DNA from: Saccoglossus kowalevskii | Taxonomy: Eukaryota > Hemichordata > Enteropneusta > Harrimaniidae | Direction: 5' to 3' | NCBI RefSeq assembly: GCF_000003605.2 | Contig: NW_003149267.1 | Location: forward strand, 318,830 to 382,829 | DNA length: 64,000 bases | Part shown: positions 18,301 to 62,640 of the stretch, piece by piece | How positions within the stretch are numbered: position 1 is the stretch's first letter | How the letters are laid out: the number at the start of each line of letters is the position of its first letter | Made by a program: the position numbers and the translations under genes | Notes under the pieces: generated by a model | What the model was told of the DNA's origin: nothing | The model's database searches: none | What the model saw: only the letters and a program-made list of their open reading frames with translations

Positions 18301-21300
18301 TCAAACAATTGTGTATTGGTATCAGGGGCTATTTATATGTGTATGCAGTAGAGAAACCATGTATGAGAGTATGAAACAGTATTCACACATCCATCCCATG
18401 GTGCATATCATTCACAATTGACATTTATTAGTACGAAATATCACTGCTGATAATTTATGTTAAACATTATAATATTCACATTACATATCATTAGATTCAT
18501 GAATATTCAAACAGTAGCGAATAAAAATTGCTCAAGTGATGCAATTAGACTCACTCTAACTCCCAGTGTCCAACTTGAAAGTTTATTGATCATGTTGCAT
18601 TTCTGTATTCAAGTGACAATTACGACAACCATAAAAAATAAACCCATTGCTGTTAACAGCTGCAAATGTGCATCTATTCGCCCACTGGTTTTCTCAGACC
18701 TATAAAATTATGTAGTTAATGTAGTTCTGGAAAATGACAATTTCTCTGTCATTTTAACAATTAGAATCAGTCATATGTGATAATAAGGTTATTACCTACA
18801 GGTCCAAGCATGATGGCTGAAAGCATCGTTAGCATATCTAAATTGTGTAGAGAATTAGTAACATACAAAATGTAGATAAAAATACCATAAGAAATACTGT
18901 AAAACATGTCTTTTTCGCGAGCATGTCTTTTTCGCGAATTTAGCGAGAGAACTGATTTGCTAATTCAAGATGTCGCTAATGACTTTATTATCAATTCAAA
19001 ATGGCCGCCAAACAAAGAAATCAACAATGACAAGAGAGATTCGCTAAATCAACATTTCGCTATTACGTCATTTTACCACAATTCGCTAAAATTGTATGCC
19101 GCTTTTTCAACATGTTTTACAGTAAGTTGAAATTACTGATGACAGTTATATTCACTTGAAAAATTACACATTTTTAAGAAAAGGCCAAGCCAGCTGATGG
19201 TTAAGTTACGTCGCAACAGTCATTTTCTATATTAGTAAGTTTGTGGATAATACATGTACTAGCGCATAGCATCATTCACATCAACTAGCCCTACATGTGA
19301 TATGTGATATCTGGCGATTACTTAATTCACAGTGGAGCGCTAGTTGATGAGGTTTGGGGAACCAGCCATGTATTGATATGCAATGGATATATACTTGTAT
19401 TTCTACACTTCATTTCACGTACCATATGCTACATGTACATATGCAACAGATGGGACTGGGTACTATTTCAGTCATTTCCTTTTAGTCTAATTAAATAGTT
19501 AAAATAAAATTATTATAAATCTATTTTTGTAATAATAATGTTACATTGCAATTTTTATAGCATGATATATTTATGAAGATTTCAAAAACCCTTTATATTC
19601 AAGTCGGTCATATTGTCTCACTTCTGCACTCTATTGAAATAATGGTTAGGCATTGAATGATGCCTCAGTGAATGATGATGGCTTCAAGTGTTATATTATA
19701 TTCAGCCATGCGTCATCAGTTTGCATCAGCCTCATCCTCCACAACCATGGTAACACATGGACTCGTGTTCACATACATGTATTTTTTTTTACATTTCTCA
19801 AATGTACAGTAATGGTGACCCTTAAAAAAATGTATAGCCTGGTGTTTATCAAAATAGTATTAAAATATTTGTATTATATACACACAGTATGATGTCAAGG
19901 CCAACACTTGATAAAAAAAATGCCCAATTTAAAGTGTGAATGAAGTGAAAAGTGTTTTCATGTTTGTGAAATTTTGTGTGAATATAAATATCTGGATTAT
20001 ATGATGAAACATAATAACAAAAAGGAAATTCAGATACGCTCATGGGTGCATGTGTCACCATGTGCCACAATGCAATACTTTGTAGTGGAATTTTTACATT
20101 TTCTGACTGTTACTTTTTCAAGAATTATTGTATAAGGGTCTAATAGGCTATAATATTCTATCAAAATCGAATTTATCTGAAAGATTGACTTGGATGATGT
20201 TCATCAGTAGCAATATAATGCAATGTTTCGGCATTTTTATTTCAACGTTGATTATACAGTAAACTGCTTTCATCCCAGGTTGGTGTAAACACAGTCAGTG
20301 TCATACGATCGATTCACAGTGTAGTGTAAAATCTTAAATTGCAGTGTTCAAAAAAAGACTTAAATTTGTATCATGTCCTCTAACTTTTCGCATGAAATGT
20401 AGCATATTATTGTCAAGCAAATTAAAAAAAACAAAAAACGTGACATTCCTTGATTATTTCGTCACTCTACATTTCTGGTGATCCATACTAAAGATTGCAA
20501 CACATTGTACCAAAGAGATAATCTCAGTTGTGTACTTTTGAATTATATCTAAATTAGTCCAAAAACAATTGTGCATTATATATTTTTTGGGGAAAAGATT
20601 TTTGAATGTTCACATTATTAGATGTCGCAGCATTATTTTTTGACAGATTTGCATACATTCTTACAAAGCTCTGTCGAAACAGCAACTCGTTGTGTGCGTT
20701 AACTTCCCGCTAAATCTATTGATGCTAATTTGTATCTTTATTAAATCACACCTCTTGTACAAATTACTTTTACAGTATTTTTGGCAATTTTTTGCACTAA
20801 GCGTTGTTTCAGAAATATATAAGGTACATGCTTAGAATACTAATTTCAAGGTGTTACAGTGTAAGTAATATTTAAATAAAATGGCTTCGAAACTGAGTTG
20901 AATTTAAAGTTAGTTTTCATATACCGCATTTGTGAACTGAATCGTTACAATTCATCTTATTTTGACCACACAAGCATATGTACTACTACCGATAATATCG
21001 TAAATACGGTACAAATTTTGCCAAATTGTTCTTTGTACATGAACATTACTTCACTTGTCTGTAAAATATTGTACAAACTTGTTCGAAAATGTTACAAGCA
21101 CGCCCTTATTTCGAAAATGTGCACCACGTTTATCTCTTCAACTTCTTTTCTTTGATTATATTGTCTGCAGCAACAGGTCTGCCTTTGTGCATACTTTGCG
21201 GTATTCTCGTAATAAGCCCTTTGCAATATTAACTTGAATTCTAACTTGAATTTTGTTATTGCTTTATTACAGCTCAAGTAATATTAATCAGCAGTGATGA

Positions 21301-22833
21301 AGCGAGTAGAGTGATTGCTAAATTGAATAATTCACTATATAAAGAGAATAAGATCCTTGTAAGAATGCCACCATTAGAGGTAATCTGTATTATGAATCTT
21401 CCGTTGAATTTCAACCACCAAGACTTTGAAGACTTAGTGCAACAGTTTGGCAGTGTACATAGATGCTTTTTAATCTATAGTGAAAGCAGTGGACACAGTA
21501 AAGGTTATGGATTTGTAGAGTATGAAAATACAGGTGAGTATTACAGCATGCTTAGTTATTGCTATACTAGCAAGCGAGCAAGACGTGCCTGTTTATTACA
21601 TTTGTGGCTTTAGGGAATATTGGTGCTACATGTCTGTATGATCCAAATACAACTTAACTCTCAGTCTTGTTCTCAGCTGACTAGCCCTTTCATAAAAACT
21701 TTAATGTAAGAATCGTTTTCGTCAATAATCTTAACTTAGTCTTTGTAGTTCAGTTAGTTCAGTTCTGCCCATAGTGACCACCTTTGGATAGTCCCAATGC
21801 AATTTACATGTAAAGTGACCTGTATAAAGACCACCTGTTTAATGTCATATGTAGCCACCCTTTCGGCACAAGTTTGGTCAAATAAACCTGTGTTTAAAAA
21901 TTATGGAAGATGATTACATGTTTAGTTATTGAATGTTGTTATATTGAAATTTCCCCATTAATGAAGACTAACAAATTTACCTTTGTTTTTTCTCCATCTT
22001 CAAATGTTGGCAAATTGCCGAAGAAAATATTTTCATTCACAATTTAATTAATCAACCTCCATATCAAGACCATCCGTCTATAAAAATAAAATGTTGTTTT
22101 TCTCTTCAGAATCTGCGTTAAAAGCTCGTAATGACCTTGCTAATAAACAACTAGGTAGCAGAATACTANNNNNNNNNNNNNNNNNNNNNNNNNNNNNNNN
22201 NNNNNNNNNNNNNNNNNNNNNNNNNNNNNNNNNNNNNNNNNNNNNNNNNNNNNNNNNNNNNNNNNNNNNNNNNNNNNNNNNNNNNNNNNNNNNNNNNNNN
22301 NNNNNNNNNNNNNNNNNNNNNNNNNNNNNNNNNNNNNNNNNNNNNNNNNNNNNNNNNNNNNNNNNNNNNNNNNNNNNNNNNNNNNNNNNNNNNNNNNNNN
22401 NNNNNNNNNNNNNNNNNNNNNNNNNNNNNNNNNNNNNNNNNNNNNNNNNNNNNNNNNNNNNNNNNNNNNNNNNNNNNNNNNNNNNNNNNNNNNNNNNNNN
22501 NNNNNNNNNNNNNNNNNNNNNNNNNNNNNNNNNNNNNNNNNNNNNNNNNNNNNNNNNNNNNNNNNNNNNNNNNNNNNNNNNNNNNNNNNNNNNNNNNNNN
22601 NNNNNNNNNNNNNNNNNNNNNNNNNNNNNNNNNNNNNNNNNNNNNNNNNNNNNNNNNNNNNNNNNNNNNNNNNNNNNNNNNNNNNNNNNNNNNNNNNNNN
22701 NNNNNNNNNNNNNNAATTTTTTAATTTTTTTCTTTTTAATATTTCAATGTCAAAATATTAATCTCTTCAGAGAGAAACATGTCATTGAGATGTCCTTACT
22801 TCATAAAAATTTCCCATAATCATATATATACAT

Positions 22834-25800: not shown

Positions 25801-28800
25801 CGATATTCAAGTGTTTTTTCCCCCCACATTATTTCTTCCCTGCTTGCATTCTCATTCCAAATATGACTAACATCAAGATGAACTGTTATATTTTTGTGGT
25901 AATTGCTGGGAATTGTAGCAGATGAGACGCAATCTAGGAAACAAACACAATTTTTCCTACTTACCTGTATTGATATTTTGATACAGATCACACACAACAC
26001 TTGATACCAATTACAGTTCTGAATGACGCATGTAGACATTTAGTCCTATTCATACGCTGAATTTGCTCTTACCGAAGTGCACATGAACACAAAAATGCTT
26101 ATAAATACATCTTACTTTGATCATAGACTCGCCTCTGTCTTTTACCTATGAAGCTCACATGGTTTAATTTAGAAAATACAGTACATACATGTGTTTTGTC
26201 TGTAGTATCTTCTTATATTCTCGTTTTTGTTTCAGATAAATGGCTCACACAGGAAATATTTACTTCCTGATCCTACACCTAGTGTTTTAGCTCAGGGTAA
26301 TAGCGATACTAAAACTACCAAACTAAGTAAGTGTCCAGACCATGCTTTTGTTGTGCACACATTGGCTGTATCTGACATGTTGCATACAAACTGTTGCCTC
26401 CTTAGAATCAATACCAATGTGTAATTGTCAATTGCGTGTGATATATAGTAATACAGCTTAATACTCTTAGCGAAGTACGCAATATAACATTTTCATCTTT
26501 GTCCAATGTTGTCACTTCGCACTCGATCAACTATACATATTTTAAAAATATTTATTTTTCTCATTACTTTGGATTAAAACCTCAAGCAACCAGTGATTGG
26601 AAAAATTGTTACTTTTGTTGCTTAAAAGTTACTTGCTAGGAATGGGTCACAAGTTACTTACACAGCACATCTAAAAAAAAAATAGTTTACTACATGTTTT
26701 TGCATTAACTGCATGTTCTCTTGTAGGTCTTCTTGGAGCACCTCCTTCAATGCCGTTCATTCCAGTCAGTCAACAAGGTGGTACCCCGGCATCGGTTTCC
26801 ATGATGAATGCTATGGTAGCTTCTCATTTTCAGAATCCATTCTCTCAACAAATGAAAGAGAACGTAAGTGTTTTTTTTTAAATATTTCTAGTTTTACCAT
26901 GCTTTGTTGTTGCAGTGAAGAATAATAGTAGCCTAGTTGATAAACGGCGCAATGCTCGAATAATAGAACTCACAAATGTTGTAACTTTCATATTTGATTT
27001 TTGGTCGACATACTTATTGAAAGGGCTTTCAAACAATTTTTGCCAACAATACTAGCATTAAGGTATGATTCATCATAAAATATAAACCTTATTTTGAAAG
27101 CGACGTGAACAGTGTTCATACATTGAAATAATACAAATGTGTCCTGGATTGACCTACACATACAGACAATTCAGAACGTTTAATGTGGGAGTGTCGCCAC
27201 CTGCGCACGAGTGGGAATTGAGTCCCAAGCGATGATGACAACACGCGCTAAAAACACAAAGGCTCATGGGTAGATGCTTGTTTGTAAAAAAAATGACAAG
27301 CTATGGCCATCTGAAGCATGCACAGGTGACGACTCTCCCCGCTTTAAGTTTACACTTGAATTATTATTACAATATTATTATTACAATGAAATGAATGCTA
27401 CTGTTTACTGCCGCAAAAGCAGTTTTTACTTTCCAATGAATCATACCAAAATGTGTTTTTATGAAGATGCAATATTAATCCAAATCAATTTATCCTACTC
27501 AAAAATACTTCTAATACTAATAATTTCTTCTCTGTAAATTGAATATGTGTTGTGTTGTCCTTTCCACTTTGGCTGTTGTTCTCAATACTTTTATAAATTG
27601 CAATGATTCAAGTTTTGTTTTTATCATTAGCCAAACCTAGATACTCGCTCCTGTCAGGTAAAACCAAATAAAGTTAGAAAGTTTACAAGATTTTCAGACA
27701 TTGAGCCACAAGACAGACATTGTTTTAGTAGCGGCAGACTTGATATGGCAGTTAGACAAGGAGGTAGTCACCATACAGCTGTGCTTACAAAGCCACAAGA
27801 CAGAGATGATTATAGTAGCAACATACTTGATAACAGAGTTAGACAGGGAGATAGTCACCAGACTCTGATGTTCTCACCACATCAAGCAATAGGGCAAGCA
27901 ACAGATAGTACAGTAATGGATTCACAACACAAGTCTCTGTTTGAGAAGATTTTGAGTTCTCCAGAAATATTGGAACTGAATCCCAGAAATATCAGTCAAC
28001 CAAAACCACCTTATACATTGCCATCTCAAATCCGGCCATTTTGTACACCTATTGGTAGTCAGAATACAGATATTAGAGGTCCAGTAAACATTGGTGCACG
28101 ACAGGGAATACCACTAGCGAATAGACAGTTCTCAACTCCAGTATATAGATTGAGAGCAATACATAATGGAAAACAGTTAGTGAGGAACCAACTATCTAGA
28201 GATACAAGGCAGTTAGAGGCAATGCCAGCACCAAGACAGCCTAAGTCATTCACAAGACTTCTGAGACCAAGAGAACCTAGCAAGTTAGCTCTACATCAGG
28301 TACATGTATTACCAGATCCAGGATGTAGCAATGATTTTTCAGTTTTAAATAGATTTTCATCAGATTATTGTAGGATTATGTCTGAAAACTACTGTAAAAT
28401 CTGTATTAGAAGCCGCGGCTTCTATTGAAATGGAGTGTAACAGAGGGGACGCAGCTTCTATTAGAGCATCTACACATATAAGAAATGAAGAGTTTCTCAA
28501 TTTTTCAGAAAGAATGGGTGCAGCTTCTATTTCTAAAATGAATGTTATACTGTAAAACATGTTGAAAAAGTGGCATTCAATTTTAGCGAATTGTGGTAAA
28601 ATGACGTAATAACCAAATGTTGATTTAGCGAATCTCGCTTGTCATTGTTGATTTCTTTGTTTGGCAGCCATTTTGAATTGATAATAAAGTCAATAGTGAC
28701 ATCTTGAATTAGCGAATCAGTTCTCTAGCTAAATTTGCGAAAAAGACATGCTCGCGAAAAAGACATGCTTTACAGTAGTTACCAAATTGCAGAGATGATT

Positions 28801-32800: not shown

Positions 32801-35800
32801 AGATGTGTGTATTCTATTACAGATGAGCTAAATATTGTAAATATGATAAATGCCTGATATAATTACTGTATTTGCTCTATTAGAAATCCAACTCTAATAA
32901 CATTTCACATGCATTTACATGATTTCATTTTTTGTATACTGGATCTTTATAATATATAGTTTGTGCACATAGGCATTTGTTATTAACATGTACTTGAGTG
33001 TATGCACTACTAATGGAGCAAATATAGTATAACATTCTCTAAGAAAAAGGCCTTGCCTAAAGGGTCACCCCCCTCCCTAGGGCGATCACACACCCGAGGC
33101 TTGTTAGTTTCCAGTGCGCGAGACTTGCGCGCATAATAATTCCATATTTGGAATTCGCATTTCCTAATATAGTAGGATGAAAATACCCCGTAAAATACCG
33201 CAAAATTACGGCATGCTGTAACGTATGGCGTTACGATGACAGATGTATGATAATGTCTGTTAATTATGTGAGCGTATTAACTACTAATGGAGCTAATACA
33301 GTATACTGTCTTTGATGTGATGTGTATATGTAATACAGTGTATATAAACATAAAACTGCTTGTATTGCATACTGGATCATTAGCATATGACTCATTGACT
33401 ATATTGACCTGCATGCACTACTAATATAGCAAATACGGTATTGTTTTTATTCAGAGTGGTGTGTATGAGCAGTATTTACCATCCTACAGTGATCAGCTTG
33501 GTCAGTATCTTATCCCAAACACAGCAATACAAGCACAACAAGCAACAGTCGATAACACGTCACCGCAGTATGGTGTTACAAATGCAGCACAGCAAGCGTA
33601 TGATTATATCAATAAGTTCATGCAGGTCAGTAGAATCTCATTGCTTCTCTAACATTAATCCTATTATAAGTAGACTGTATTGTTTGCAACATATGCTACT
33701 GTGTATCATCTGTATTCCACTCTAGTTCAGTTCATGCTTCTACACTAACCAATTCAGCTTTCAGCCTAGCGATTATATTTAATCCTTGGCGATTATTTTT
33801 TCAGAACATTGAAACAAAAAATTTGGCATAAAAAAAAATTTTGTGATTTAGAATCATTCTTTAATTATTTAATGAATTCAATAGTTGTAATATAAAATAA
33901 TTTGTTATTAGGAATAAAATGTATTATTGTTATAAAATGTATTTTTTACTATAAAATTGGCTGCAGATTAATTTTGGAAAAATGCTAACTAGAAAAACAA
34001 AATGGTCCTGTTTAGAAAAATGTTTTTTTCTTTTCTTGTGTACAATATAAGTGAGACCTCTTAAACTGGATCACCTGAATCAAATCTGTTTTTGTGTTTG
34101 ACCAAAAATGATTTTTATTTCATGAAAAATGTGCATGATATATTGTACTTGGTTCGCATCGTTGATCTCAACTTAAAAAATCATGATTATTTTAAGGGAT
34201 GGACATTCAGCTGAGCATCCCTCAGAAATTTTGAAATATCTTTTTTTGCTCGTTACCTGACAGGTTTTGTTGACTTTGTTGAGCGGAGCTTATCATATGA
34301 GTGATTGTCCGGTGTCGTCCATCGCTGTTGTCCTTGTCAACTTTTTACGTTTTCGAAGACTTCTTGAAAACAACAATTCTTATTGCTTTTGATACTTGGT
34401 GTATATGTACCTTAGGCAGGCCTCTCTTAGATTTGTTCATTTCGTGATGATATATTTAATTCTCTAATTTTGATGAATATTTTTGTCATTTTTGGTAAAG
34501 AGTGATATTTTCAACTTCTTGTTGAAAACCGCAAGTCTGATTGCTTTGATATTATACATATAGAAACTAAAGGTTGACCTCTCTCAGATTTGTTAATTTT
34601 GTCATGATATTTTCAATTCTCTAATTTTGATGAATATTTTTGTCATTTTGGATAAAAAGTGATATTTTCGACTTCTTGTTAAAAAACCGCAAGTCTGATT
34701 GCTTTGATATTATATATATAGGTACTACATGTGAACCTCTCTCAGATTGTTCATTTTGTGATAATATCTTCAATTTTCTAATTTTGATGAATATTTTTGG
34801 CATTCTTGGTAAAAAGTAATATTTTAGACTTGTTAAGAACCATGAGTTCGATTGCATATTATACATATAGGTAACTCAGGTAGACCTCTCTCAGATTTGT
34901 TCCTTTTCTGATAATATCTTTAGTTCTTTAATTGAAATGTGCATTGCTAACAGCGGAACTATCTCAGTCGAAAGGCTGCTTGTTTAAACAAAAAAGGATA
35001 TTGTAATAATATTGTAAATGATCATAGTGCTTCACTTTATGGCTGCTAATTAAACACAGCCACTCACAGTGATGGGCTTAAATTGCAGTCTATCTTTTAT
35101 ATAACTATGTTGTCATTGAATGAATTTCTCGATTTATTTTCCATTTCTAGAAGCAAACTCAGCCACCGCAACCGCAAAGTGCAGCTATGTTTAACAGTGA
35201 TGCACTGTATCAGAGCTATCATCAGACAGCACCCAGTATTGTGAATCCTAATTATAATTATTATAATGATCAGTGGTCTACATCAGCTTACAGTCCATCA
35301 ACACCCAGTAATACAAACTATAGTAGTAGTAGTGCAAACTATAGTACTCAGGTCAGTATATTATAAATCTGCTTACAGTCAACATCCAATAGACCCATGT
35401 GGCATTGTTAGTGCTCCACTTCGTGAATTTCTATGTGTCGGAGATACAGAAAACTGTTGAAAATAGCACTAGTATGGCCGCCGTTCATCATACATGATAT
35501 GTACCGTTCATATGATCCAACAGGAAAACCTGACCCTTTTTTTCAGTGACTTGTTTACTGTATGGCCTGAACTATTTAATTTTTTTATCAGTATACATGT
35601 TAAAAAATCAATGACGATGTGTGTTTCAATGTTGCTTATGATCACTGATCAGCATCTGTATTTTCCTTGTACTTTGCATGTTCCAGCTGGTCTTCCACGC
35701 TTGACTAGTAATCAAACATAATACATGTCAGTTTGCAGAGGTTGAAAATTGAACAAAAGTGCAAACTACATTCACCCAGCCATTACATTAATCCCACTGA

Positions 35801-35942: not shown

Positions 35943-36896
35943 ATGTATGTATGTATGTATGNNNNNNNNNNNNNNNNNNNNNNNNNNNNNNNNNNNNNNN
36001 NNNNNNNNNNNTATGTATGTATGTATGTATGTATGTATGCATGTTTTCCACTTCCAATCACTCATCAGCTTCCATTGAAACTTAGTACATAGATACTTTG
36101 GGATAATGCACATACCCAATGTTTTGTGTTCTAGAATATCATTACACATTTTGTGTCTGCTGTGATTTAATCTATAATAGTTGACTGGCAGCCATTTATT
36201 GGGCTTGTATTAAAGTGAAAGGAAAGTCATAGTACCGGTAGTGGCAAAATGTCTGTCGTCTAGCGGTGGCGACATAAACTTTTCTAGGGGGCACGATAAC
36301 TCCTGTAATATTCAGTCAATTGCTATCATATTGCCAACATAAAATTACACATGTTGAGTTGTATTTCAGTGTAAAACATTTACCGTAGTTGTCCGAGTAT
36401 AAACCCCTCTGGGAAAGCGGCAATCAAAGAAAAAATGGGGGGGGGGGGGGCTTATAAACTGATAAAAGTTAAAACTTCTCCCGAGCGATAATTTATGCTT
36501 ATTTATTCATAAACAAATCTAGTGTCTTCATTGACTAGCATCGTTCAAATTAACTTGAGGATCGACCGTTACACCCCGGGGTTACTAATCACTCTTGGGT
36601 GTGTTGTGGAACAGCATTCGACCCTGCGTTTTATTGTTTGTCGCTTGAATGAGCACCAGAATGGATTGATAAAGACAACATACAAGTGAACGCTACAATT
36701 ATTTTAGTGCATTGACCTGATTTGTATTTGTTTTATTTCGTTTCAGTTGACTACTCCTGTTGCGGGACAAAAACGTAGTTCAGCGCATATTCTGCCGTCA
36801 CCAGAACCAAGTCCAGATAATGGGTATGTTGGACAGCATTCACAAGGCTTAGGTGGACATTATGCTGACTCTTACAAGAGAAGAAAAATTGTATAG
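12352..36896 (+). CDS. RAVER: RAVER1/2 homologue: PTB-binding RRM protein (14 exons seen, one gap)
   Basis: Exons: 12352-12606, 13378-13444, 21273-21533, 22110 to the gap at 22169, 24276-24458, 26236-26326, 26727-26863, 27631-28299, 28925-29563, 29770-29874, 30724-30804, 33455-33625, 35151-35351, 36747-36896. All visible junctions are GT-AG and phases agree. RRM1 begins [18 protein letters not shown]2 has [10 protein letters not shown] and [11 protein letters not shown], and the RRM3 end has [12 protein letters not shown]. About 45 codons joining RRM2 to RRM3 are lost in the gap. The C-terminus (SPEPSP, then [14 protein letters not shown], ending KRRKIV) is nearly that of vertebrate RAVER1. 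Raver proteins bind PTB RRM2 through [SG][IL]LGxxP motifs and modulate alternative splicing; SLLGAPP (exon 6/7 junction) and SLLGPAP match, and four further LLG motifs come close. With over 1,020 visible codons it exceeds vertebrate RAVERs, mainly through exon 8 and Q-rich exons 9-13. KRRKIV may be a nuclear signal. An in-frame ATG at 12325 is possible, but 12352 has better context. Confidence 0.93.
16991..17204. repeat. 107-bp tandem duplication
   Basis: The block starting TTTTGTCTGAAAATGATTAA at 16991 recurs at 17098 with about one mismatch over its length (ATTGCTGG versus ATTGCTAG). Such identity in intronic DNA implies a recent duplication, or an assembly duplication. Confidence 0.9.
18040..18258. 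repeat. Diverged tandem array, unit about 43 bp
   Basis: About five units share CTCTATTAGAAGCACATCTC and ACCATATTTGCTC. The same TATTTGCTCTATTAG / CTAATGGAGCAAATA motif appears dispersed at 23480, 32870, 33010, 33285 and 33418, so the array may derive from a MITE terminus. Confidence 0.7.
18895..19124 (+). mobile_element. MITE family C copy 1 (230 bp)
   Basis: Ends are TACTGTAAAACATG and CATGTTTTACAGTA, a 14-bp perfect terminal inverted repeat with a TA at each outer end. That is typical of Tc1/mariner-type MITEs. The interior has CGCGAGCATGTCTTTTTCGC, GATGTCGCTAATGAC and CAAAATGGCCGCC. A copy of the same length lies inverted at 28548-28777, and a decayed one at about 45470-45655. Confidence 0.85.
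22169..22714. other. Assembly gap inside RAVER
   Basis: A run of 546 N. RAVER exon 4 enters it at LGSRIL. It must hold the end of that exon, and probably a further exon for the RRM2-RRM3 linker and the first strand of RRM3. Confidence 0.95.
22836..22864. repeat. (AT)n microsatellite
   Basis: A run of about 14 AT dinucleotides in the RAVER intron just after the gap. Confidence 0.9.
23948..24156 (+). mobile_element. MITE family D copy 1 (209 bp)
   Basis: Terminal inverted repeats TACTGTAAAATACTTTATTT and the complement of AAAATAAAATATTTTACAGTA-type sequence. The interior has TAGCTGGAATTAATTTT and GCGAAAATTAATTC. A copy in the same orientation lies at 30070-30283. It shares the TACTGTAAAA terminus with family C but has a different interior. 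Confidence 0.85.
27181..27347 (-). mobile_element. Short MITE, family B copy 2
   Basis: Inverted copy of 8994-9154, in RAVER intron 7. It shares AATTGAGTCCCAAGCGA, AAAGGCTCATGGGTAGA and the terminal CAGGTGACGACTCTCCCCGC. Confidence 0.85.
28390..28547. repeat. Repeat with TACTGTAAAA start and palindromic core
   Basis: It begins TACTGTAAAATCTGTATTAG and contains the palindrome GAAGCCGCGGCTTC and two further GCAGCTTCTATT motifs. It directly abuts the MITE at 28548, and a separate right terminus cannot be told apart from that element. Confidence 0.45.
28548..28777 (-). mobile_element. MITE family C copy 2 (230 bp)
   Basis: Ends TACTGTAAAACATG and GCTTTACAGTA. It is an inverted copy of 18895-19124 of identical length, located in RAVER intron 8. 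Confidence 0.88.
28998..29090 (+). repeat. RAVER: CAG/CAA tract in RAVER exon 9 coding for poly-Q
   Basis: An interrupted CAA/CAG run encodes a long Gln tract with a few Leu and Val. Further tracts lie at about 29333-29370 (same exon), 29788-29826 (exon 10) and 30757-30774 (exon 11). Mixed codons in exon 9 point to an older tract; exon 10 is nearly pure CAG and so more likely to vary in length. Confidence 0.9.
30070..30283 (+). mobile_element. MITE family D copy 2 (214 bp)
   Basis: Starts TACTGTAGAATACTTTATTT and ends GTATTTTACAGTA. It shares TAGCTGGAATTAATTTTT and AGCGAAAATA with 23948-24156. Confidence 0.85.
31685..31880 (+). mobile_element. MITE family E copy 1
   Basis: Starts TTTCACCACCAAACTTTCTC and contains TCTGCACTTTT, CAATATTTCTGGAATTGAAC and ACTCAAAAAATTTG, in common with 39296-39525 and, inverted, 46195-46390. 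The right end is less clear. Confidence 0.6.
32866..33033 (+). mobile_element. MITE family F copy 1
   Basis: Left TACTGTATTTGCTCTATTAG and right CACTACTAATGGAGCAAATA followed by TAGTA form an inverted repeat of about 20-25 bp. Right-hand termini of the same family recur at about 33275-33300 and 33411-33440. Confidence 0.6.
33150..33253. repeat. Interspersed repeat, copy 2 (partner at 4132-4232)
   Basis: Shares TATTTGGAATTCGCATTTCC, CAAAATTACGGCATGCTGTA and TATGGCGTTACGATGA with the copy near the left end of the window. Confidence 0.65.
33411..33454 (+). promoter_or_regulatory. RAVER: Candidate branch point and acceptor of RAVER exon 12, repeat-derived
   Basis: GCATGCACTACTAATATAGC is the terminus of MITE family F. 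It contains TACTAAT (33419-33425), a near-perfect branch-site match whose branch A (33424) lies 30 nt before the end of the AG at 33453-33454, with TTGTTTTTATTCAG between them. Use as branch point is inferred from motif and spacing. Confidence 0.5.
34247..34985 (+). mobile_element. Non-autonomous element family G copy 1, with internal tandem units
   Basis: Begins near TTGACTTTGTTGAGCGGAGC and ends GGCTGCTTGTTT. The inside is built from about four tandem units of 130-160 bp, each with ACTTCTTGTTGAAAACCGCA, ATTGCTTTGATATTATACAT, GACCTCTCTCAGATTTGTTC and TTGATGAATATTTTTGTCAT. A better-ended copy lies at 61925-62460. Confidence 0.75.
35917..36040. repeat. (GTAT)n microsatellite broken by a 50-N gap
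   Basis: GT repeats pass into GTAT repeats, then about 50 N (35962-36011), then GTAT repeats again. The gap is most likely unresolved repeat length. Confidence 0.9.
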
Positions 36897-41560: not shown

Positions 41561-41900
41561 AAAAAAATATCAAGAAGAGCATCACAGATAACGAAGGTGA
41601 ATTAAAGAGTTTTTTTTTTTATTTTTGCAAAATATACAGCAAATATTTCAGAACAAATCTTGAATCAGTTTTCAATACCAAAAGTGCATTACTGGCATTT
41701 AGAACTAATATCCCATAAGGACATAATGCATCATTCTTTATAAAAATTCATACTGTATGTACATGGTGTGCAATGATAATGTTTGTACAACTTGGAATAA
41801 CAATACTAGTAGGCCTTAAATATCACAAACCTGGGAGACTAAGGGCATTTCACGATTTATTTTCAAAAAAATTAAAAAATCATACAATTCCCCCAGATAG

Positions 41901-42060
41901 TACCAGGATGTACGACCTTTAGGGGTCAGCAAGTACCATGATGTATGACATTTAGGGGTCAGAAAGTACCAGGATGTATGACCTTTAGAGGTCAGATAGT
42001 ACCAGGATGTATGACCTTTAGGGGTCAGATAGTACCAGGATGTATGACCTTTAAGGGTCA
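41901..42060. repeat. 33-bp minisatellite, about five units
   Basis: Units start with TACCAGGATGTATGACCTTT at 41901, 41934, 41967, 42000 and 42033, a strict 33-bp period. Each unit contains TGACCT-TTAG-GGGTCA or a one-base variant, an everted nuclear-receptor-like half-site pair. The minus-strand open frame it creates (TSWYYLTPKGH repeats) is a by-product of the period being a multiple of three. Confidence 0.93.
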
Positions 42061-42645: not shown

Positions 42646-45600
42646 CTACTTTAATATATTTTCCACAAGTTTTGCACAGTCTGAAACCTTAGCTGGTGCT
42701 GCCAAAGTTGTTGCCTTGGTAACAACCGGTAGTAAATCTAATGACCTGGATATAGCTATTGCTTCCTCATTGTTAGCGATTAAAGTCCCTAACCCTACAA
42801 GATATCTGAATTGTGCCTCTGATTCACTTTCACATTGAAATAAAGCAGCCAATACAGATAAACACTGCGCTTTACCCTCTACATCAGAACTAGACGCCAA
42901 TGCTACGCAGTAATTCAGAATTAAACTAGAAAGTGAAATCCTAACATTACGATTGTTACTATCTTTGTACTCCAGAAATGATGTCAATATACCATCCCTG
43001 TTGCTTAGCAAACATTGGTTGCCCTGAGCCTGACTGAAAGCATTACAGAGAGTTCTGAGTACCAGCATTTGATTGGCTGGTTTAGTGTCATGTGATAGTA
43101 TACTATGAAGATGTCCTAGGAATTGCTGACCATCTTTTTCATTGCAAAAATGTTGATTAACAACTTGATGTTGGATTGAAATGCGAAGTATATCCAAAGC
43201 AGGAAACACTGTATCTGAAATGGAATAAACAATTGTAACTAAAAAAGCCCATCACAACTGGATAATGTCAACCATTTTCCCATTAGACCAAAAATCAAAG
43301 TTTAACTCAGCAAAGCTCATATCTGAATACAGAATATGTGCAATCATCATTGTTCTGTGGGAAAAAAAAATCAGTTAAAGAGCAATGTCAATGTCAAGTT
43401 AAGATCATCAGGCAGCCAGTGTTCAGCACCAATATATAGTAAAATCAGTCCCTAACCCTTCAGAGTAAGTATGTTAATTCATTTTGAAATTCATGGTAAC
43501 TGTATTATTTCACCATCCATTCATTTGACATTTTCTGCTGAAATTTACCGCAGTTTTCCAACCAAATCATTATTATCATGTATATGCTAAAAAAGGAATG
43601 TCAAACGGTGATAATAAAATATTGTATAGCAAATTTGATCAAAATCTGTTTACATGGACTGAAATGAGATAATTAATATGCAAATTAGCTACTTAATATG
43701 CATGGTTACGCATTATTCCAAGGTATCTATTAAAGTAAAACATGAGTGTAATCTATTACAACATACCTGCTGGCCACTGTAATAATTTCCACAATATTTC
43801 AATTTGTTTCATGGATGGTGTTTGTGTCACATCCAGTAGCTGACTCACATCTTGTATTTGGTTGTCATCTAATCTGTCACTTTCACATAAACCAGTGTTC
43901 AGTTCCTTCAATTTATCTGAAATATGTTTTAAACTTTAGTGCTGCAAGCCTTAAATGTTGCTAACTCAGGCATTATGTGTAAAATATCCGATGATTACTT
44001 GATCTGAGCAATTTTATTTAATTTTATTTAAAATTTAATTTTAATTTTAAAGACACATTTCTTACCTATAACAGCTTTACCGTTAATCGAGTCAAATGTA
44101 AGGTAACTGGTTTTAGGAAAGTACGCATTACTAATCAGTGGTTTGCCTTTAGATTGGAATTGAACTGTTGGCTGACCATAAGTTGGTATATATCGACTGC
44201 CACCTAGAATTAACAATATGTATACCAAACATCAGACTGTATGTGGAACTATTGCTGGTATTACCTGGTACACTGGAAACAAGTATTTCACTATAGATAC
44301 CTTGTATGATAATTTTGGTGTTCTTAGAATTTGAATACCCAAGCTGTGTACAAAATCATTAACTAAAAATATTCACTGATAATAGCAAATATAAATATCC
44401 CCACAAAGTAAATAAATCTGATGGAGGTCCACCCAAGATGCTAGTGGTTTTCAAGAAGTCAATTGTGAAGCTAAGAAGTACAGTACAGTACAGTCAGACT
44501 CGTAGCTTTGGCTTTTCGTCAAGACTTTTTTTAGTTTTGTTGTTAGGAGTTGATAGATCAAATGACTTGTATTACACATTATTAAATGCCTGTGAATGAT
44601 GCTTACCTGTCAATGGGTCATGCATTGGTATATCACTTAGAGAAGATGGCATTGGTTGTTGGCCGCTACCAGGAACATACCGAGAACCACCTGCATCATG
44701 GTTAAAATATAGCCAATTAATGCATTTGTTACTCTACTCAGTAACAGAGATAATATATGGTTTATCATTAGCAAGTTTGGGGTTCTTTAGTTACTAAATT
44801 GTGTTTGACAGAGTCAAGATGATATTACACAATTGACTGCAGTCAGCCAACATTTTTAAAAAGTCGGCCTACTGAACGCGAAAAAAAATCAAACGTGTTG
44901 CATTCCTGCAAACAAATGTGGGCCAACCTACATGTGTAATGTGATGGTTGCACCTACATGACTGATTATAATAGGCCAATGCTCTGCTGGCTAGCTGACT
45001 AAAGTTGGTTGTGTAATTTCGTCTTTAGCTTGCAACTAATGGTGGATTTGCACTTATTTACATTTTGTGTGCGTGCACATACACAGTGAGCGGTTGGCAA
45101 GTACTGGTTATTCACACCCAAAGATAAAATACAGTGTCAAGAAGGAACCTTTATTTGTAGCGATTGAACATTCAACATTTCAGACAGCGTTGTGATATTA
45201 ACAAGACACTACATACCTGTGAATGGATCCTGCATTGGTGTTGGACCTGATGATGGTTGTGTACTATTACTACCAGCAGGAATATAACGAGAACCACCTA
45301 TTGATATGAATGTACGAGTATTGCCATATAACATGTATAACACTTAATGTATAATGCACAGCTGTAATTACTGCAGTGGGGGGATACGCAGCCAAGACAC
45401 TTTATCGGTAGAAGTCAACCCCAGGACATTGTCAATCTACCGATATATACTGCAAAACATACATTGTAGCTACACGCCAGTTTAGCGAATATAACATGAA
45501 TTAACTAAATCTTAATTTACCAAAAGTGCCAACAGTCTCATTGTGAGATTATATTTATTTTAAATTAGTGACATCTTGAATTAGCAAAATTACAGATCAG

Positions 45601-48600
45601 CTAAATTAGCTAAAATAACATGCTAGCTAAAAAGACACGTTTTACAGTACATTGTAGTCCATACAACAATGTATCAAAACACAAAGATTTTTATATCAAA
45701 TGTATACAAATTCGCTGTACTACTAGTTAAACTGTTTTTTGATTATGCATGTAATATTATAAACTGAAGAGATTATTTTCTGTTCACTCACAAAATATCT
45801 CAATGCCATAGTTCTCTCTGAATTTTGACATTGAGATGTAAAGCGTGAAATTCAAGTTCAAAATCAAATTTGTTTTTTTTTGCGGCAGACCTTCATATCG
45901 CATCTTCCATGCAAGATCTCCCAGTGAATGGAAATTCAACCATTGTTACAAGAAAAGAGCATTACAACACTTTACAGTATACATGTAGCAGATAAAATTG
46001 TTAACTTCCTGTTGACATAAAAACATTTTTTGTAACTGTTTGCATTTTTGAGTCTGATAAAATACATGAACAGAATTAATTTTGTCCCCTTGTAGTTCAT
46101 GTGACGTAATTTGTATTAACATCAGTACGATCATGGTTTATTGTTATGTTTTAACAAGAACCTTTCTCTCCAAAAATTTTTTGGTTTATGCTTTATCCTT
46201 TTCACCACCAGTTCCCTCTTTTCATCACAAATTCACAAACTAGTTCTGTTTATAGTCTGCACTTTCTTTCAAAATATTGGGACAAAAATAGCCAAATAAT
46301 TTGAGTAAAAACTGAAAATTGTTGAGAATTGTAAGAACAAGATGCAAATAAAAAAAAATTGGACGAGAATGTCTGGTGGTAAAAACGTTAACAGTCTTAA
46401 GATTCTCACCTGTAAATGGATCACTAACTGTTACTGGAGTCCCACCACCAAGTGTTACACCTTTACTGTTTTCAACTATGAAGTTAGCGACTTGGTCTAG
46501 GAATAGTGGACTTAATTCATGTTTATTTAGAAACCTTTGAGCAGCAAACCATGGGTCTTCTGAAATATTATAAGGCAATTGTAATGGAGGTTTGCCTTCC
46601 TCTATGTCTACACTAAAAACATAATCATATTCCTGAAAAACAAGAAGACAATCACATTAAACTGAACTGTACTGAAGGGTAAAAACGAGAGTTTATTGTA
46701 GAATATATAATAGATTATCAGGGGTTTTTCTAGAAAAAAACTGCAAGAGGGAGCACTGAATTCAGCGACACTGCCAAGTGGGGGAGATAGGGTTCTTCCT
46801 ACCAGGGTGTAGAGTTTTTGATAATTCTAAGTTAAAATGGAGCATTCTATGGCTTCCTTGGGGCCAAAATTACTATCAGACAGGTCACAGTTGAAGACTG
46901 TGGCCACATGTGATCCCTGGTCATTCAGAATTTTATGGTTGCCAGAGGATCTGCTCCCCAGGGTAAGGGGACGCATGGCCATGGCATGAGAGCGCTCCGC
47001 CCGTGTTCCCTTGTTTAAAAATATCCCTGGATTAGAGTACAAAGCTAAATTATATTCACATGTATCTCATAATGCACTGTCTCTATAAACTTTTAACATA
47101 ACTGTTCATTGCATACCAGAAAACAAAATATGGACATCATGAAAAAACAAAATGAGCGCTGGTCCAGCATATCTGAGGACATTTTGAAACATTTCGATAT
47201 AGTCAAATTTTAAAGTAGACGTTCAAGATCAAACTGTGATACCATATAAACACATCGAGTAATTATGTATTATGTTTGTTACGTACCTTTCCTTCATAGG
47301 TGGCTTTACCAGACTGGCGTTGTGATGAATCAGCTGAACCAACAACATCACCTATCTTATTCCATTTCATATCAGCAGCACTCCATGAATATGCCTCTAC
47401 TTTATTCTCACCAACTCTTACCATAGTTGTTTGACCATCTTTTTTACCTGTATAAAACCAATAAGAAAATGTATTCACTTTATATCCTCACACACATGAC
47501 TCCTGACAGAATGACATGAGAGACACCCCTTTTCTTCCTTTCTTCACCTGGATAATTTTAAAAACATGCTTTTAAAGTTGTAGGTACATAGATTTTATAT
47601 ATTTTAGACCTGTACAGCTTGTTTGGGCCACAAAATACGAGCCCAGTGATAATAAAATCCTGCATATGGTTCTGCAGTAGCTTCTAACAATTGAGTATAT
47701 CTATGACCATGTTTGACGATGTGTTAACTTCACCATCAAACTCGTCAATGAATATTGTTATTTTTTTTGGTATCAGTGTTGATTATGATAGCGAAACTGT
47801 CATGTGAATCAACAACTTTTGCTTCAAATCAAACAATGTCCTAAGTAGTTCAAGGTGTTCCAATGAGTGACTGATTTATTTAACTGCACAAACAATGGTT
47901 AAGATACATTAAAAAATATGGTTAAAATAGTTAATGTGTATGCTAATTAGCTAATTATTATGCACAGAATAATTGTGATCTATTATAAAACATTCAACTC
48001 TCATAGTATGCATACACTATACACACAAGAATAATACATTTATGTGATTTAAAGAATTAATTAATTAACAAATTTCAGAGCCAGCTAAACTAATTGATTA
48101 CCAGCATGCCAAATTTGGTTGAAATTTGCCAAACAGCTTCCAATAATATTATACTCATTAACTCAGTTAACAGTCTTTCAGATTCATCTTGAACACAGGG
48201 ATTAATAACATTGACAGGAATCTCAACTAACCTGGTTTGTGTAAGCTTTCAGGTCCAGGGACTAATATTGATAGAAATCTCAACTAACCTGGTTTGTGTA
48301 AGCTTTCAGGTCCAGGGACCAATAACATTGACAGAAATCACAACTAACCTGGTTTGTGTAAGCTTTCAGGTCCAGGGACTAATATTGACAGAAATCTCAA
48401 CTAACCTGGTTTGTGTAAGCTTTCAGGTCCAGGCTCTAATAATATTGATAGGAATCTCAACTAACCTGGTTTGTGTAAGCTTTCGGGTCCAGGAAGTTCA
48501 TCAATTTTAATCTTCCCTAAATCATCAGATTCTGGATTCAATGATGCCGAAGATACTTGCTTTTCAAACATGTCAATTTCTTCAGCACTAGCAGTTCTAT

Positions 48601-51600
48601 CTGGATTACATGTGAATACTCTAACCATATTATCACTGTACAAAAAAAATAATGAATATGAATATAATATTGGTATACATGACCACAGTATACTACCATT
48701 CCAGGGGTACTACTGAGGCAATATACCGGTAATACAAGGGTGGCACTAGAACCCACTAGAAGTATTAAAAAGAATAAACCCCCTTACAGACTTCATTTAT
48801 TTTGTCGTTGTATTTATTTATTTGTTTATGCTTGCAGAACACTTCTGAACTCAATTACTTACAAGAACAGTTAGACCAATCAGAGAGCAGCTTGTTTGAT
48901 GACTGTTTTTCAATGTAACAAATTCTACCTTGTTTTTATGCCTTGCCTGAACTTTACTTTTGTTGATTTCCAAGAATTATTTTCAGCTGTAGATGGTGAA
49001 TATACAGGGTAGATCCCTTTCCAGACTCGAAACAACAGACCCAATTTAGAGTACCGATAACACCAATATACCTTCCCAATACAATCAATGAATCAGTACT
49101 GAATCATAGCATTTGGATACATCAAGATCACTCCAGATTACAGCATGTTCAACCCAACAAGTTTAGACACCAAAATAACTCAAACAAGGCAAAGATGAAG
49201 TTGAGTTTTGACGAGTTCTAAAATATTTTGTGCACCACTATTGGAGTGAAATTATTTATAACGACATACAGGTGTTTAGGAATCATCTTAGTATATCAAA
49301 ATGTCTGTCATTTAGAAATAAAATGCTATTATTGAGAAACGTGCATGTGATCTGATTCACTGATACCGAATACCAGGTAAATCCAAAGCCAAAATGCAGT
49401 GCTTAGTCATGTCTAGCTCCCTCTCCAAGGGTATTCTCATTAGAGCTAAGTGTACCAACTGAACAAATCTATAAGTTGAAAAATTTCATAAGCAACACAG
49501 GTTTTATTGAATTTTATAAAAGAGGGTTATTTAGCCTCCATCATATTATCAACTTATTTCAGCTGGTTCACTTTAAATGTAACACAGCACCACTCACCAT
49601 ACCATGTCATACACCATCCAAAACAATGTCCAAGTTCACACTGAGCTCACATACTGCTTCAGTTTAGGCATATTTTATAACATAATTCACTTCCAACAAA
49701 ACACACTACACGATATATATATATACATATTGGTATATATACTATACATATATACCACATGTACCAAAATCAATGACATTTTAAGAGACAAATTACACAA
49801 GCACAAATTGAACATCTAAATATGCACAATGGTGCAAAAAGGAAAAACTTGCAGCAAGCTGGGCTAAAAGCCAAGCAAACTCATTAAGGGTCATACAGTA
49901 AAAGCATGTAACAGCAAACTTAGTAATTTTATAAATATTGCTGTATAACCACAGGAAGCCCAGGAACTATGTTCAACTGTACCTATGACCTATGACCCCC
50001 CCCCCCCCCTCATAGAGACTGCGTACTACAGTTGATTATAGTTCCTGGGCTCCCTGTGGTATAACCTGTCATTGATAAGTTTTAGGGGTTAATCCATGAC
50101 AAAGGTCACAGTTGAATATGTCTACTAGTAATGTTCAAATCTGACTGGCTGTCAAGGCTATGCCATATAGTATAAAAAGTCTGTTTACAAGTAAAGGCTT
50201 TGGGTAATACAGTCAAACCTGTGTTAGTGACTACCTGCCTGTAGTGACCACTTTTATGTATGACCAATCTGTGTAGAAAAACAACCTCAATTATATGACC
50301 AACCTTTCAATAATTTGACTTTGAGAGTAGAGACCAAACAATAATTACATTCCCTTTACTAAACAATTTTTAATTTTCTGAATCAAAATAAATGTTTTTT
50401 GTTGTCATAGTCATAGTCATTATTTTCTGGACAAATAATAACCAAACCTCCATATAAAGACCACCTGTCTATAAAGACTATGTTAATGAAGTTCCTTGGG
50501 TAGTTACTATACATGTACTCAGGTTTGACAGCAACTGATTTGCCAAGAAAAAGGCAATTACAACATTTGTTCGCAGTATTAGGAGAGATCCTCTATTATA
50601 TAACAGATGAAATACAAACCTTGCACCTACAGCAATATCGCCATTATTTAATGTAGTAACAGACCAGACAGACTGTGCTGGTAGATGTACAGTTTGTGCA
50701 CAGTCACCAGCCTTCCATATACGCAATGTTCTATCTTCACCAACAGTAGCAAAGTCTGTTCCGTTGGGTAGTACAGACAGACTGTAAACATAGTTTGTAT
50801 GGCCATAATACTCCTGTAGACACTGTCCTGATGTTAACCATCTACGAATACTGGCATCGTTACTTGCTGATAAAAACTCAACATCTGATAGGACAGCTAA
50901 TGCTCGTACACAGTCAGTATGTCCTAATAATAAAAGAACATCAAATCATTAATACATCACAGCAAGATAATAACATTTATCCACAATCCAGTGCAAAACT
51001 TTATTTACAACTTACTTGTAACTGGAAATCAAGACGTATAGTAGTTACATACTGGGTTGCAAACAAACCAAATCGGATGAAAAAATATATGAATGTGTAT
51101 ATTGCTAACATTATGTCCCATCTTTGTAATGAATTTTAACAAAAACAGTGCCTGAAAATTGAGTAAAATTGGGTAAAGACATCAAAATCAAATAAAATGG
51201 TCATCAGCCATTTTTTAATCAGATAACCATAAAACGTATTAAAGTTTTGATGAAATCGATGACATTAATCAAATCCTAGGTGTGCATATATATTAATAAG
51301 TATGCATATACTTATTTTTTTTGTTACAATTTGTTTTAAATAACTTACTATTACGACCACAAACCCATTCCCCTTGATTTTTGGTGTTGAATCCAGGTAT
51401 GATTCAAACCTTGATTGCAAATTTTAAATTTTACGCAACAGCATAGTTATTAAAATTATTAGTAAGATATTGGTCAATAATTACCGATAGATAAATTTTA
51501 TTACATCCTGTTTTCTCCCATGCACATCTGGCTGAAATGATTTGTACATGTAACAGAAAAAATGTAATGGGTTTTTCTTTGACAAATCGTCTGTTTTGGT

Positions 51601-58640: not shown

Positions 58641-59195
58641 NNNNNNNNNNNNNNNNNNNNNNNNNNNNNNNNNNNNNNNNNNNNNNNNNNNNNNNNNNNN
58701 NNNNNNNNNNNNNNNNNNNNNNNNNNNNNNNNNNNNNNNNNNNNNNNNNNNNNNNNNNNNNNNNNNNNNNNNNNNNNNNNNNNNNNNNNNNNNNNNNNNN
58801 NNNNNNNNNNNNNNNNNNNNNNNNNNNNNNNNNNNNNNNNNNNNNNNNNNNNNNNNNNNNNNNNNNNNNNNNNNNNNNNNNNNNNNNNNNNNNNNNNNNN
58901 NNNNNNNNNNNNNNNNNNNNNNNNNNNNNNNNNNNNNNNNNNNNNNNNNNNNNNNNNNNNNNNNNNNNNNNNNNNNNNNNNNNNNNNNNNNNNNNNNNNN
59001 NNNNNNNNNNNNNNNNNNNNNNNNNNNNNNNNNNNNNNNNNNNNNNNNNNNNNNNNNNNNNNNNNNNNNNNNNNNNNNNNNNNNNNNNNNNNNNNNNNNN
59101 NNNNNNNNNNNNNNNNNNNNNNNNNNNNNNNNNNNNNNNNNNNNNNNNNNNNNNNNNNNNNNNNNNNNNNNNNNNNNNNNNNNNNNNNNNNNNNN
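58641..59195. other. Assembly gap
   Basis: A run of about 555 N. Open frames spanning it are artefacts. It may contain one or more ASF1 exons. Confidence 0.95.
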
Positions 59196-60566: not shown

Positions 60567-62640
60567 CTGCAGTACTCATTGGAACAATCAATCCTATAAC
60601 AGCCAACTTGTATAAATTAACAAATACATCTTTATATTGCTTCACCACTTTGGTCATCATCTGAGTCCAAGTAAAACTGCTGTGTTGGTCATCCACCATT
60701 ACTTTTTTCATCATTTCCCACTCCATAGCCATCACTTCACTAGATAAAATATTACTATAATGGGTTGATAGTGTCTGAAATAAAAACAGATAAAACCCGG
60801 TTATAATTCAGCCTTTCCATCAAAAAATGTCTGATATGTGGACAAATGATATTTTTGCCTGTAAAATGAAAATTTAGTCACTTGTATATAGTTACAACTT
60901 TTATAATCATTGAAAATAATGATTCTTTATTACACTACAAAAAAACATCAGTAGGTTTTGCATGGTACTAAAATTTATGTACAAAAGCAAAGAAACCAAT
61001 TACTAAGTACATTGGAAAATATTTATTTTTTTTTTAATATTTTATAATGCTCAGTCTTCAAACATAATGAAAGTACATACATTTCCTTCTTTATCAGTGT
61101 ACTTGGCATACATAATCAGTTGTTTGAGTATTGATATATCTGTGGTTTCATCTACCATAAGGCTATAAAATGGACTTGTATTCTTCTTTCAATGACCTGA
61201 GCCAAGACATCCACCATCTCTTGAATTATCCTTTCTGACATGTAATTGGCATTACCACCCTGCAATAATCAGTGCAATTAATTAAATGAAATTAGAAATA
61301 AGGAAAGCGGAATAATTAAAAAAAATGATTAAAAAACAATTTACCTTGTTCAAGTGTTCTAAGCATGAACCACCAAAGGATTTCACCAAATCAAGCAATG
61401 GCCTGAACTTCGTTGTATGTGCTACTTCGTTTTTGCATATCCAATACATACATCTAAGGGCAGAAATAAACGATTGTCTCTCCATATTTATATGATGATC
61501 CATTGCTGCTATGATTCCACCGTTTTTGGCAGATAATATCGCCTTCTTTTCTTTTAGTTTGGCGAGTTTATGCATGTCAGACTTCACGTGTCGCACAATA
61601 CTCTGTTTCTCCAACGCTGTGCATGGAGTCATAATCAGATCCGTTTCTTGCTCTTACTCCGTGTTTTCCACGCGTAAAACACAACATACCTGTTTTGCCA
61701 AAAATAATCAACATTATAAATCATTTTTGTGATCGACAAATGAAAATAAATAGAAGCGAAACACAAAATGGTCGCCGAAAGAATCGATTGAAAACACAAG
61801 GCCAGACCTTTAACCTCCGAGAGACTTGATTAAAATATTTTTTTCCATACCTTTTTCGTCTGGAGTTTGTCGTAACCATTCATACGATGTTAACCATGAC
61901 TTGTCAAAACCAGTTTTTCTTTTTAGCTCCGCTGTTGACTTTGTCGAGCGGAGCTTATCATATGAGTGATTGTCTATCTCCGTCGTCCGTGTCAATGTTT
62001 TATTTTTTCGACTTCTTCTTGAAAACCACAAACCTGAATGCTTTGATACTTGGTGTATATGTACCTTGGGTAGACCTCTCTCATATTTGTTCATTTTATG
62101 ATCATATCTTCAATTCTCTGATTTTGGTGAATATTTTTGTCATTTTTGGTAAAAAGTGATATTTTCGACTTCTTGTTAAAAACCGCAAGTCCAATTGCTT
62201 TGATAATACATATATAGGTACTACATGTGGACCTCTCTCAGATTTGTTCATTTCGTGATGGTATCTTCAATTCTCTAATTTTGGTGAATATTTTTGTCAT
62301 TTTTGGTAGAAAGTGATATTTTCGACTTCTTGTTAAAAACTGTAAGTCCGATTGCTTTGATACTATACATATTGTTCATTTTCTAATGATGTCTTCAGTT
62401 CTTTAATTGAAATATGCATTGCTAACAGCGGAGCTATCTCAGCCGATAGGCTGCTTGTTTTACTTTCTTGTAATTTGGAACTAGATTGCCCATCTTGTTT
62501 GTGTTTCGTCGGAGTAGACAGCGACGTGAACCATGATCGGGACGCGGACACTGATTTTCTTTCTGCATATTTGGCGATCTCGAGAGCGTGTTTATGATGC
62601 GAAGGCAAGGTACAATCTGATCGCTGACGAACATCAACCC
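60567..62640 (-). pseudogene. hAT-type transposase-derived gene (ZNF862/DUF4371-like), broken
   Basis: Minus-strand exon-like pieces with splice signals lie at about 62640-62461 plus 61924-61840 (split by an inserted element), 61689-61347, 61259-61081 and 60774-60567. They follow the order of TTF-finger/DUF4371 hAT proteins: FDKSWLTSYEWLRQTPDEKG, KHGVRARNGS, TPCTALEKQSIVRHVKSDMH, KNEVAHTTKFRPLLDLV, GGNANYMSERIIQEMVDVLA, YSLMVDETTDISILKQLIMY and VIGLIVPMSTA. The last normally precedes the ERxFS part of the hAT dimerisation region, which is missing. Frames shift near 61635 and near 61150, the second finger cysteine reads Arg, and a family-G element interrupts the first coding block. Introns suggest a host-captured gene or an intron-bearing hAT transposon, now decayed. 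Confidence 0.65.
61925..62460 (+). mobile_element. Non-autonomous element family G copy 2, inserted in the hAT gene
   Basis: The left end AGCTCCGCTGTTGACTTTGT with CGAGCGGAGCT forms a hairpin by itself. The right end AACAGCGGAGCTATCTCAGC with CGATAGGCTGCTTGTTT ends at 62460. AGCTCCGCTGTT and AACAGCGGAGCT are a perfect 12-bp inverted pair between the two ends. Inside are about three of the tandem units seen in 34247-34985. Removing it brings the coding text LQESK next to KRKTGFDKSW. Confidence 0.78.

Follow-up and report, generated by a model that had tools for sequence, protein, structure and literature searches.

A probable donor-anchored minisatellite at exon 5 of PLAA in Saccoglossus kowalevskii, with arrays of similar build in PHKB and DARS2

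The end of exon 5 of the PLAA gene of Saccoglossus kowalevskii and its splice donor are repeated together in a tandem array that is probably a donor-anchored minisatellite, spliced mainly from the first donor and belonging to a recurrent class. Use of the first donor, with the remaining donors as tolerated noise, is the most likely behaviour of this array. Judging from sequence, arrays made of an exon end plus its donor form a class that has been found at five donors in three genes, namely PLAA, PHKB (three arrays, with units of 45, 49 and 55 nt) and DARS2. Repeats at exon boundaries that change splicing (PMC2812944) and intron gain by tandem duplication (PMC2891723) are known, as far as the cited parts of these papers go. 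What is new here is the recurrence of exon-end and donor arrays in several genes of one genome. The open-access literature, surveyed by title or by the start of the abstract, gave no report of such arrays recurring across the genes of a single genome.

The PLAA array lies in a window of 64,000 nucleotides, by which we mean the whole stretch of DNA that was analysed. The gene was identified by Pfam matches to the WD40, PFU and PUL domains on minus-strand frames. An exon model comprising 12 exons, GT-AG introns of 149 to 3,608 nt and 812 residues with zero internal stops agrees with these matches, and both support the name PLAA given in the first-pass annotation. The exon 5/exon 6 junction ESLHKPG/KKDGQ (the slash marks the exon boundary) was aligned without an insert to EILQSPGRKEGQ of Doa1 (3psp_A, E 6.8e-05), which we take to be the yeast homologue of PLAA. 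Because this alignment is free of inserts, the first donor (48466) is the conserved one, and this presumed functional donor of exon 5 sits within repeat unit 1. Elsewhere in the gene, exons 8-10 (44066-46632) each start with GGSRYxP and exons 7-9 end with DPxTG in phase 1-1; by its sequence the region of exons 7-10 looks like a series of exon duplications in the linker before PUL. In intron 5, the stretch 47500-47548 contains an AG at 47502 that scores 5.6 as an acceptor, second to the modelled one, and a donor-like CAGGTGAAG at 47548. A minisatellite of 33-nt x 5 is present at 41894-42060, about 0.6 kb 3' of the PLAA stop codon.

Tandem Repeats Finder reported the array at 48196-48493 with periods of 57, 60 and 117, the best score (526) being that of the 117-nt dimer. 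The five tandem copies with periods 60-57-60-57 and the donor positions named in the first-pass annotation were recovered both by the repeat finder and by block mapping (Table 1). Each unit contains a 28-nt block, composed of CCTGGACC, a C or T and GAAAGCTTACACAAACCAG, and then GTTAGTTG, which gives the donor CAG/GTTAGTTG. On the minus strand these blocks begin at 48493, 48433, 48376, 48316 and 48259; their last positions are 48466, 48406, 48349, 48289 and 48232. The last 30 nt of the exon had been described as repeated; this is accurate for 28 nt but not for the first two, which are AG in c2, TC in c3-c5 and TT in the exon. An AG directly before the 30-nt block was correctly noted for three of the four extra copies, c2, c3 and c5, c4 having GG. 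All five donors are identical (CAGGTTAGT) and have equal scores. Five occurrences of a 24-mer from the core were counted in the window, whereas 100 shuffles gave an expectation of 0.00. When the whole genome (572,110,611 bases, 4,830 contigs) was searched at the DNA level, with only the best candidates scored, the array was found at one place with 100% identity. A 3-nt slip, ATT, is alternately present and absent in the units and produces the 117-nt dimer; the top score of this dimer bears out the proposal that the alternating period stems from amplification of a two-unit block.

The unit length is divisible by three in PLAA (57/60), DARS2 (57) and the 45-nt PHKB array, and not in the 49- and 55-nt PHKB arrays; a coding reason for such lengths was rejected as they occur in only three of the five arrays, and they were taken as chance. 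An antisense ORF of 105 aa across the PLAA array is a consequence of the repeat period. The window also contains two arrays of 157-nt period with similar consensus units (34414-34933 and 62073-62372) and a 17-nt unit repeated about twice at 18905-18937 and at 28737-28769, in opposite orientation and about 10 kb apart. Assembly gaps occur at 22169-22714 (546 N), 35962-36011 (50 N) and 58641-59195 (555 N).

Table 1. Features of the PLAA exon 5 region (window positions) and of the DARS2 array (positions in the contig interval given).
Feature	Position	Strand	Description
PLAA exon 5	48466..48635	-	170 nt, ends in phase 1; donor CAG/GTTAGT after 48466; exon model
PLAA intron 5	47448..48465	-	1018 nt; exon model
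PLAA exon 6	47287..47447	-	start of PFU domain; Pfam and exon model
Whole tandem array	48196..48493	-	dimer period 117; CCTG stub at 48199-48196
Unit 1, 60 nt	48434..48493	-	true exon end (CCC, CpG), donor 48465-48460 and spacer
Unit 2, 57 nt	48377..48433	-	block c2; donor 48405-48400
Unit 3, 60 nt	48317..48376	-	block c3; donor 48348-48343
Unit 4, 57 nt	48260..48316	-	block c4, without AG before it; donor 48288-48283
Unit 5, 60 nt	48200..48259	-	block c5; donor 48231-48226; continues into unique intron
Block c2	48406..48435	-	AG present; 30 nt from canonical donor; acceptor score -0.7
Candidate micro-exon c3	48349..48378	-	30 nt, phase 1-1; 87-nt intron; acceptor score -4.4
Candidate micro-exon c5	48232..48261	-	30 nt; intron of 204 or 87 nt; acceptor score -4.8
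DARS2 array	890-1176 of C3977:481900-484000		57-nt units, exon end and donor

We infer that the PLAA array arose by a tandem duplication that began within the final 28 nt of exon 5 and extended into intron 5. Slippage or microhomology repair at CCTG may have started this duplication, as CCTG is common to both array edges (GAACTT/CCTGG on the exon side and TTAATC/CCTGTG on the intron side). Exon 5 carries CCCG where all four intronic copies carry CCTG, the 28-nt block being otherwise identical. Since the T is found in each of the four copies while the exon keeps its CpG, the intronic copies would derive from one founder, in which the C-to-T change probably occurred by CpG decay before the array grew within the intron, partly as the 117-nt dimer. 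Such a duplication would have left the upstream exon intact together with its donor, so the protein can still be made via the first donor, and splicing is expected mainly from 48466.

Use of any of the four downstream donors leads the reading frame at once to an in-frame TAG, in line with the earlier statement that retention of the sequence between copies meets a stop. Rare use of a later donor would give one truncated product, consisting of the WD40 part only and ending in LHKPG, and then probably nonsense-mediated decay. The equal scores of the five donors count against a preference for the first. For pairs of comparable donors, the cited part of one study (PMC6002489) describes a tendency towards the intron-proximal one, and this tendency would predict use of 48232 and a stop, against use of the first donor. 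RNA folding of the array gave a z of -0.21, and the opening energies, as a measure of accessibility, did not favour the first donor over the others. An RNA structure that hides the downstream donors was rejected on these two results. By analogy with ABCA7 we expect later-donor use in PLAA to be low. Noisy donor choice is the better half of the earlier idea that the array generates splice variants or noise, and the ABCA7 precedent would suggest a level of a few per cent.

The VNTR in intron 18 of human ABCA7 is the closest known case; it is described here from the cited parts of one paper (PMC5954066). The first GT of this 25-nt VNTR is the exon-18 donor. Retention of one unit was 2 +/- 1%, and in cell lines it did not depend on the length of the VNTR. 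The alleles in the cohort had between about 12 and about 427 units, and none of the brain samples with a measured allele was expanded (same source). As in PLAA, the first unit supplies the exon donor and retention of one unit leads to a premature stop, and every PLAA unit repeats the donor as expected for a donor-spanning VNTR of the ABCA7 type. The ABCA7 unit counts 25 nt from the GT and contains no exon sequence, whereas the arrays described here have units of 45-60 nt with 15-42 nt of exon. In brain, alternative ABCA7 isoforms, mostly with exon-19 skipping, together often exceeded the canonical one, and VNTR length was linked to exon-19 skipping and to disease. Because alternative isoforms are this frequent in the samples described, a donor array need not be harmless.

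A genome search with a three-copy CAGGTRAGT pattern led to the minus strand of contig C808, where PHKB is located. The 55-nt array follows an exon ending in NPDLFDGMLKIRVG, and its units consist of that exon's own end and GTAAGTG. It was found as 12.4 copies, a gap of 5,794 N and another 5.4 copies (at least 17), with the exon upstream of the gap. The alignment with phosphorylase kinase beta (8jfk_B) covers ELFSGMLKIRIGWIIHAM across the junction between this exon and the next, and two of the three frames downstream match KPBB_C (Pfam), one of them under the curated cut-off. The donor of the exon is TGG/GTAAGT, and eight of the 17 later donors printed are CAG/GTAAGT; the units meet a stop at once, directly after KIRVG. 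The other two PHKB arrays were found by repeat finding in which no donor pattern was used. About 34 copies of 49 nt (29.6 + 4.8) follow a candidate exon with an open frame (...EGAHYLTDG), and 4.9 copies of 45 nt follow ...QPEYRQMMVE, up to the end of which 8jfk_B aligns. The three arrays span C808:72734-83212, and the exons in front of them end at 83198, 80830 and 72920.

The second donor-pattern search gave places on 11 contigs, among which C808 and C3977 were confirmed as exon boundaries; these genome-wide searches were swamped by large minisatellites. On C3977 the DARS2 exon, which ends at 483044 in RDEGTKPDRQPEFTQ, is followed by 5.0 copies of 57 nt. Mitochondrial AspRS (4ah6_A) aligns DRQPEFTQIDIEMSFV across this junction, and aspartate-tRNA ligase models match on both sides of the array. 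No copy of the DARS2 array closes the reading frame, and each unit would add 19 residues beside a conserved stretch. Within the repeat-finder edges the exon contributes 28 nt in PLAA, 32 nt in DARS2 (DRQPEFTQ/) and 15 (LTDG/), 42 (KIRVG/) and 25 nt (QMMVE/) in the three PHKB arrays. Since coding effects and block features differ among PLAA, PHKB and DARS2, a shared coding purpose of the arrays is unlikely, and a shared birth process together with tolerance is the simpler explanation. The boundary repeats of human paralogs described in the cited part of PMC2812944 are minisatellites with an effect on splicing (mean unit length 30 bp, repeated 4 times). They concern recent primate paralogs lying in segmental duplications, where novel introns were formed, whereas the arrays here are in PLAA, PHKB and DARS2.

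Within an 11-kb PHKB stretch (C808:72700-83500, 5,007 non-N bases) six consecutive donors were found by reading, and arrays start at three of them. Five of the six gave a located boundary, and the sixth (GACAAAG/GTAAGA) was read from the exon tail. When the 55-nt array is left out, two of the three others (45-, 49- and 31-nt) start no more than 40 nt away from an exon end, for which the chance is about 0.007. This donor enrichment comes from one gene that was picked because of its array and is a lead, not a result. In 200,000 bases of C808 (67,293 N) the filter gave 11 array rows, including four donor-anchored PHKB rows. Minisatellites are thus common on this contig, and some would land on donors by chance. 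A broader and rather doubtful reading is that minisatellites are preferentially made or kept at 5' splice sites, with the first of up to dozens of donors of equal or greater strength being chosen reliably, or the units being erased as nested mini-introns. If it were true, the usual intron-proximal tendency would be broken and exon boundaries would be linked to the birth of repeats. Identical tandem donors are usually built in the laboratory for studies of how a 5' splice site is chosen, and the arrays described here, in three conserved genes, form a natural series with copy numbers from 5 to about 34. Protein conservation indicates the correct splicing outcome, which provides a natural test of the choice among near-identical donors. 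The series may also show an early stage of duplicated AG/GT boundaries becoming introns or, as the open DARS2 array suggests, protein repeats.

A repair of later-donor use through self-cancelling nested introns, running from the GT of one unit to a later CCAG as mini-introns of 57 to 234 nt and restoring the normal mRNA, seems improbable to us. Because the exon ends in AG, each unit begins with GT and ends with AG, and all ten GT-to-CCAG pairs rebuild the same junction. Each block also contains CTTAC, similar to the branch-site consensus, 10 nt upstream of the CCAG end. Against this, CCAG as an acceptor reaches -6.5 (exon copy, -7.0), which is below all 11 modelled acceptors, a pyrimidine tract is absent and the branch distance is very short. 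Zhuo et al. reportedly dealt with intron gain by tandem duplication in 2007, to judge by the title of their paper. Intron gain via tandem duplication of AG/GT has been described in Drosophila, in the cited part of PMC2891723, and gives some support to nested introns, the duplication logic and the GT...AG units being the same. Each of the 18 intron sequences in that paper's set had a premature stop. In those cases the new intron was born inside an exon, whereas in PLAA an existing donor was multiplied.

The first-pass annotation had interpreted three of the four extra copies as potential phase 1-1 micro-exons. In the form that fits the array best, c3 and/or c5 would be spliced in, adding ten residues once or twice before the PFU domain, and we regard this as very unlikely. 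Out of 15 combinations of copies, only c3, c5 and c3 with c5 have an AG throughout and all introns >30 nt. The geometry of a micro-exon is thus found in two of the four intronic copies, where AG and donor flank the block, the frames are open and introns of 87 and 204 nt could be formed; c2 would need a 30-nt intron and c4 is without the AG. The acceptors of c3 and c5 are weak and lie at the low end of the scores that a weight matrix gave to the 11 modelled PLAA acceptors (-4.7 to +9.9), although the modelled acceptor of exon 11 is equally low (-4.7). An intron of 87 nt would also be shorter than the shortest one modelled in PLAA, 149 nt. As a whole the micro-exon proposal is weak. The related claim that the copies could not be used together agrees with this shortest modelled intron but not with the pair c3 and c5, which could be joined through two 87-nt introns. 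The shortest human introns are named as 43 nt (PMC4463651) and introns of about 25 nt are known in ciliates (PMC5014332), according to the cited parts of these sources.

The variation among the PLAA copies was also considered. Nine of the 60 aligned columns vary, one of 28 in the exon block and eight of 32 elsewhere; among the four intronic copies the counts are 0/28 and 6/32 (Fisher P 0.026). With a 36-nt core, the edge of which was chosen after looking, all six variable columns among the intronic copies fall outside (Fisher P 0.0027), and across the versions the avoidance of the exon/donor core by variable columns had Fisher P values from 0.029 to 0.0019. In a gap test without chosen borders, P was 0.013 when four copies were used and 0.027 with all five. 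Such variation could mean that the copies are used, as micro-exons would be. For two control arrays elsewhere in the window the same gap test yielded P values of 0.96 and 0.044, the latter counting against this interpretation, as does the PHKB 55-nt array. In the five 3'-side units of that array that were aligned, core conservation is absent, with seven of nine variable columns inside the exon-like block (38 of 57 columns). As a sign of selection on the copies the PLAA pattern is suggestive only. An AG directly precedes one of the 17 intronic blocks printed for the PHKB 55-nt array; in DARS2 it precedes all four intronic blocks, but these are 28 nt each and would cause a frameshift. These block features argue against a general micro-exon device.

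That the copies were joined from different alleles or from mis-assembled reads is also very unlikely: the genome is a draft with N gaps, into one of which (5,794 N) the PHKB 55-nt array runs, but 1 to 8 substitutions separate the two PLAA units in each of the ten pairs, the PLAA array lies in N-free sequence and similarly built arrays are present at other genes.

Other donor-like arrays that look coding by eye were seen at C92:38-7066, C4344:115499 and C1557:33821, with units of 65, 64 and 54 nt. At C808:93401-94931 an array of 40.5 copies of 38 nt seemingly reaches the acceptor TTTTTCAG/AACACTGACGCCGCT of an exon-like frame and is perhaps an acceptor-side counterpart.
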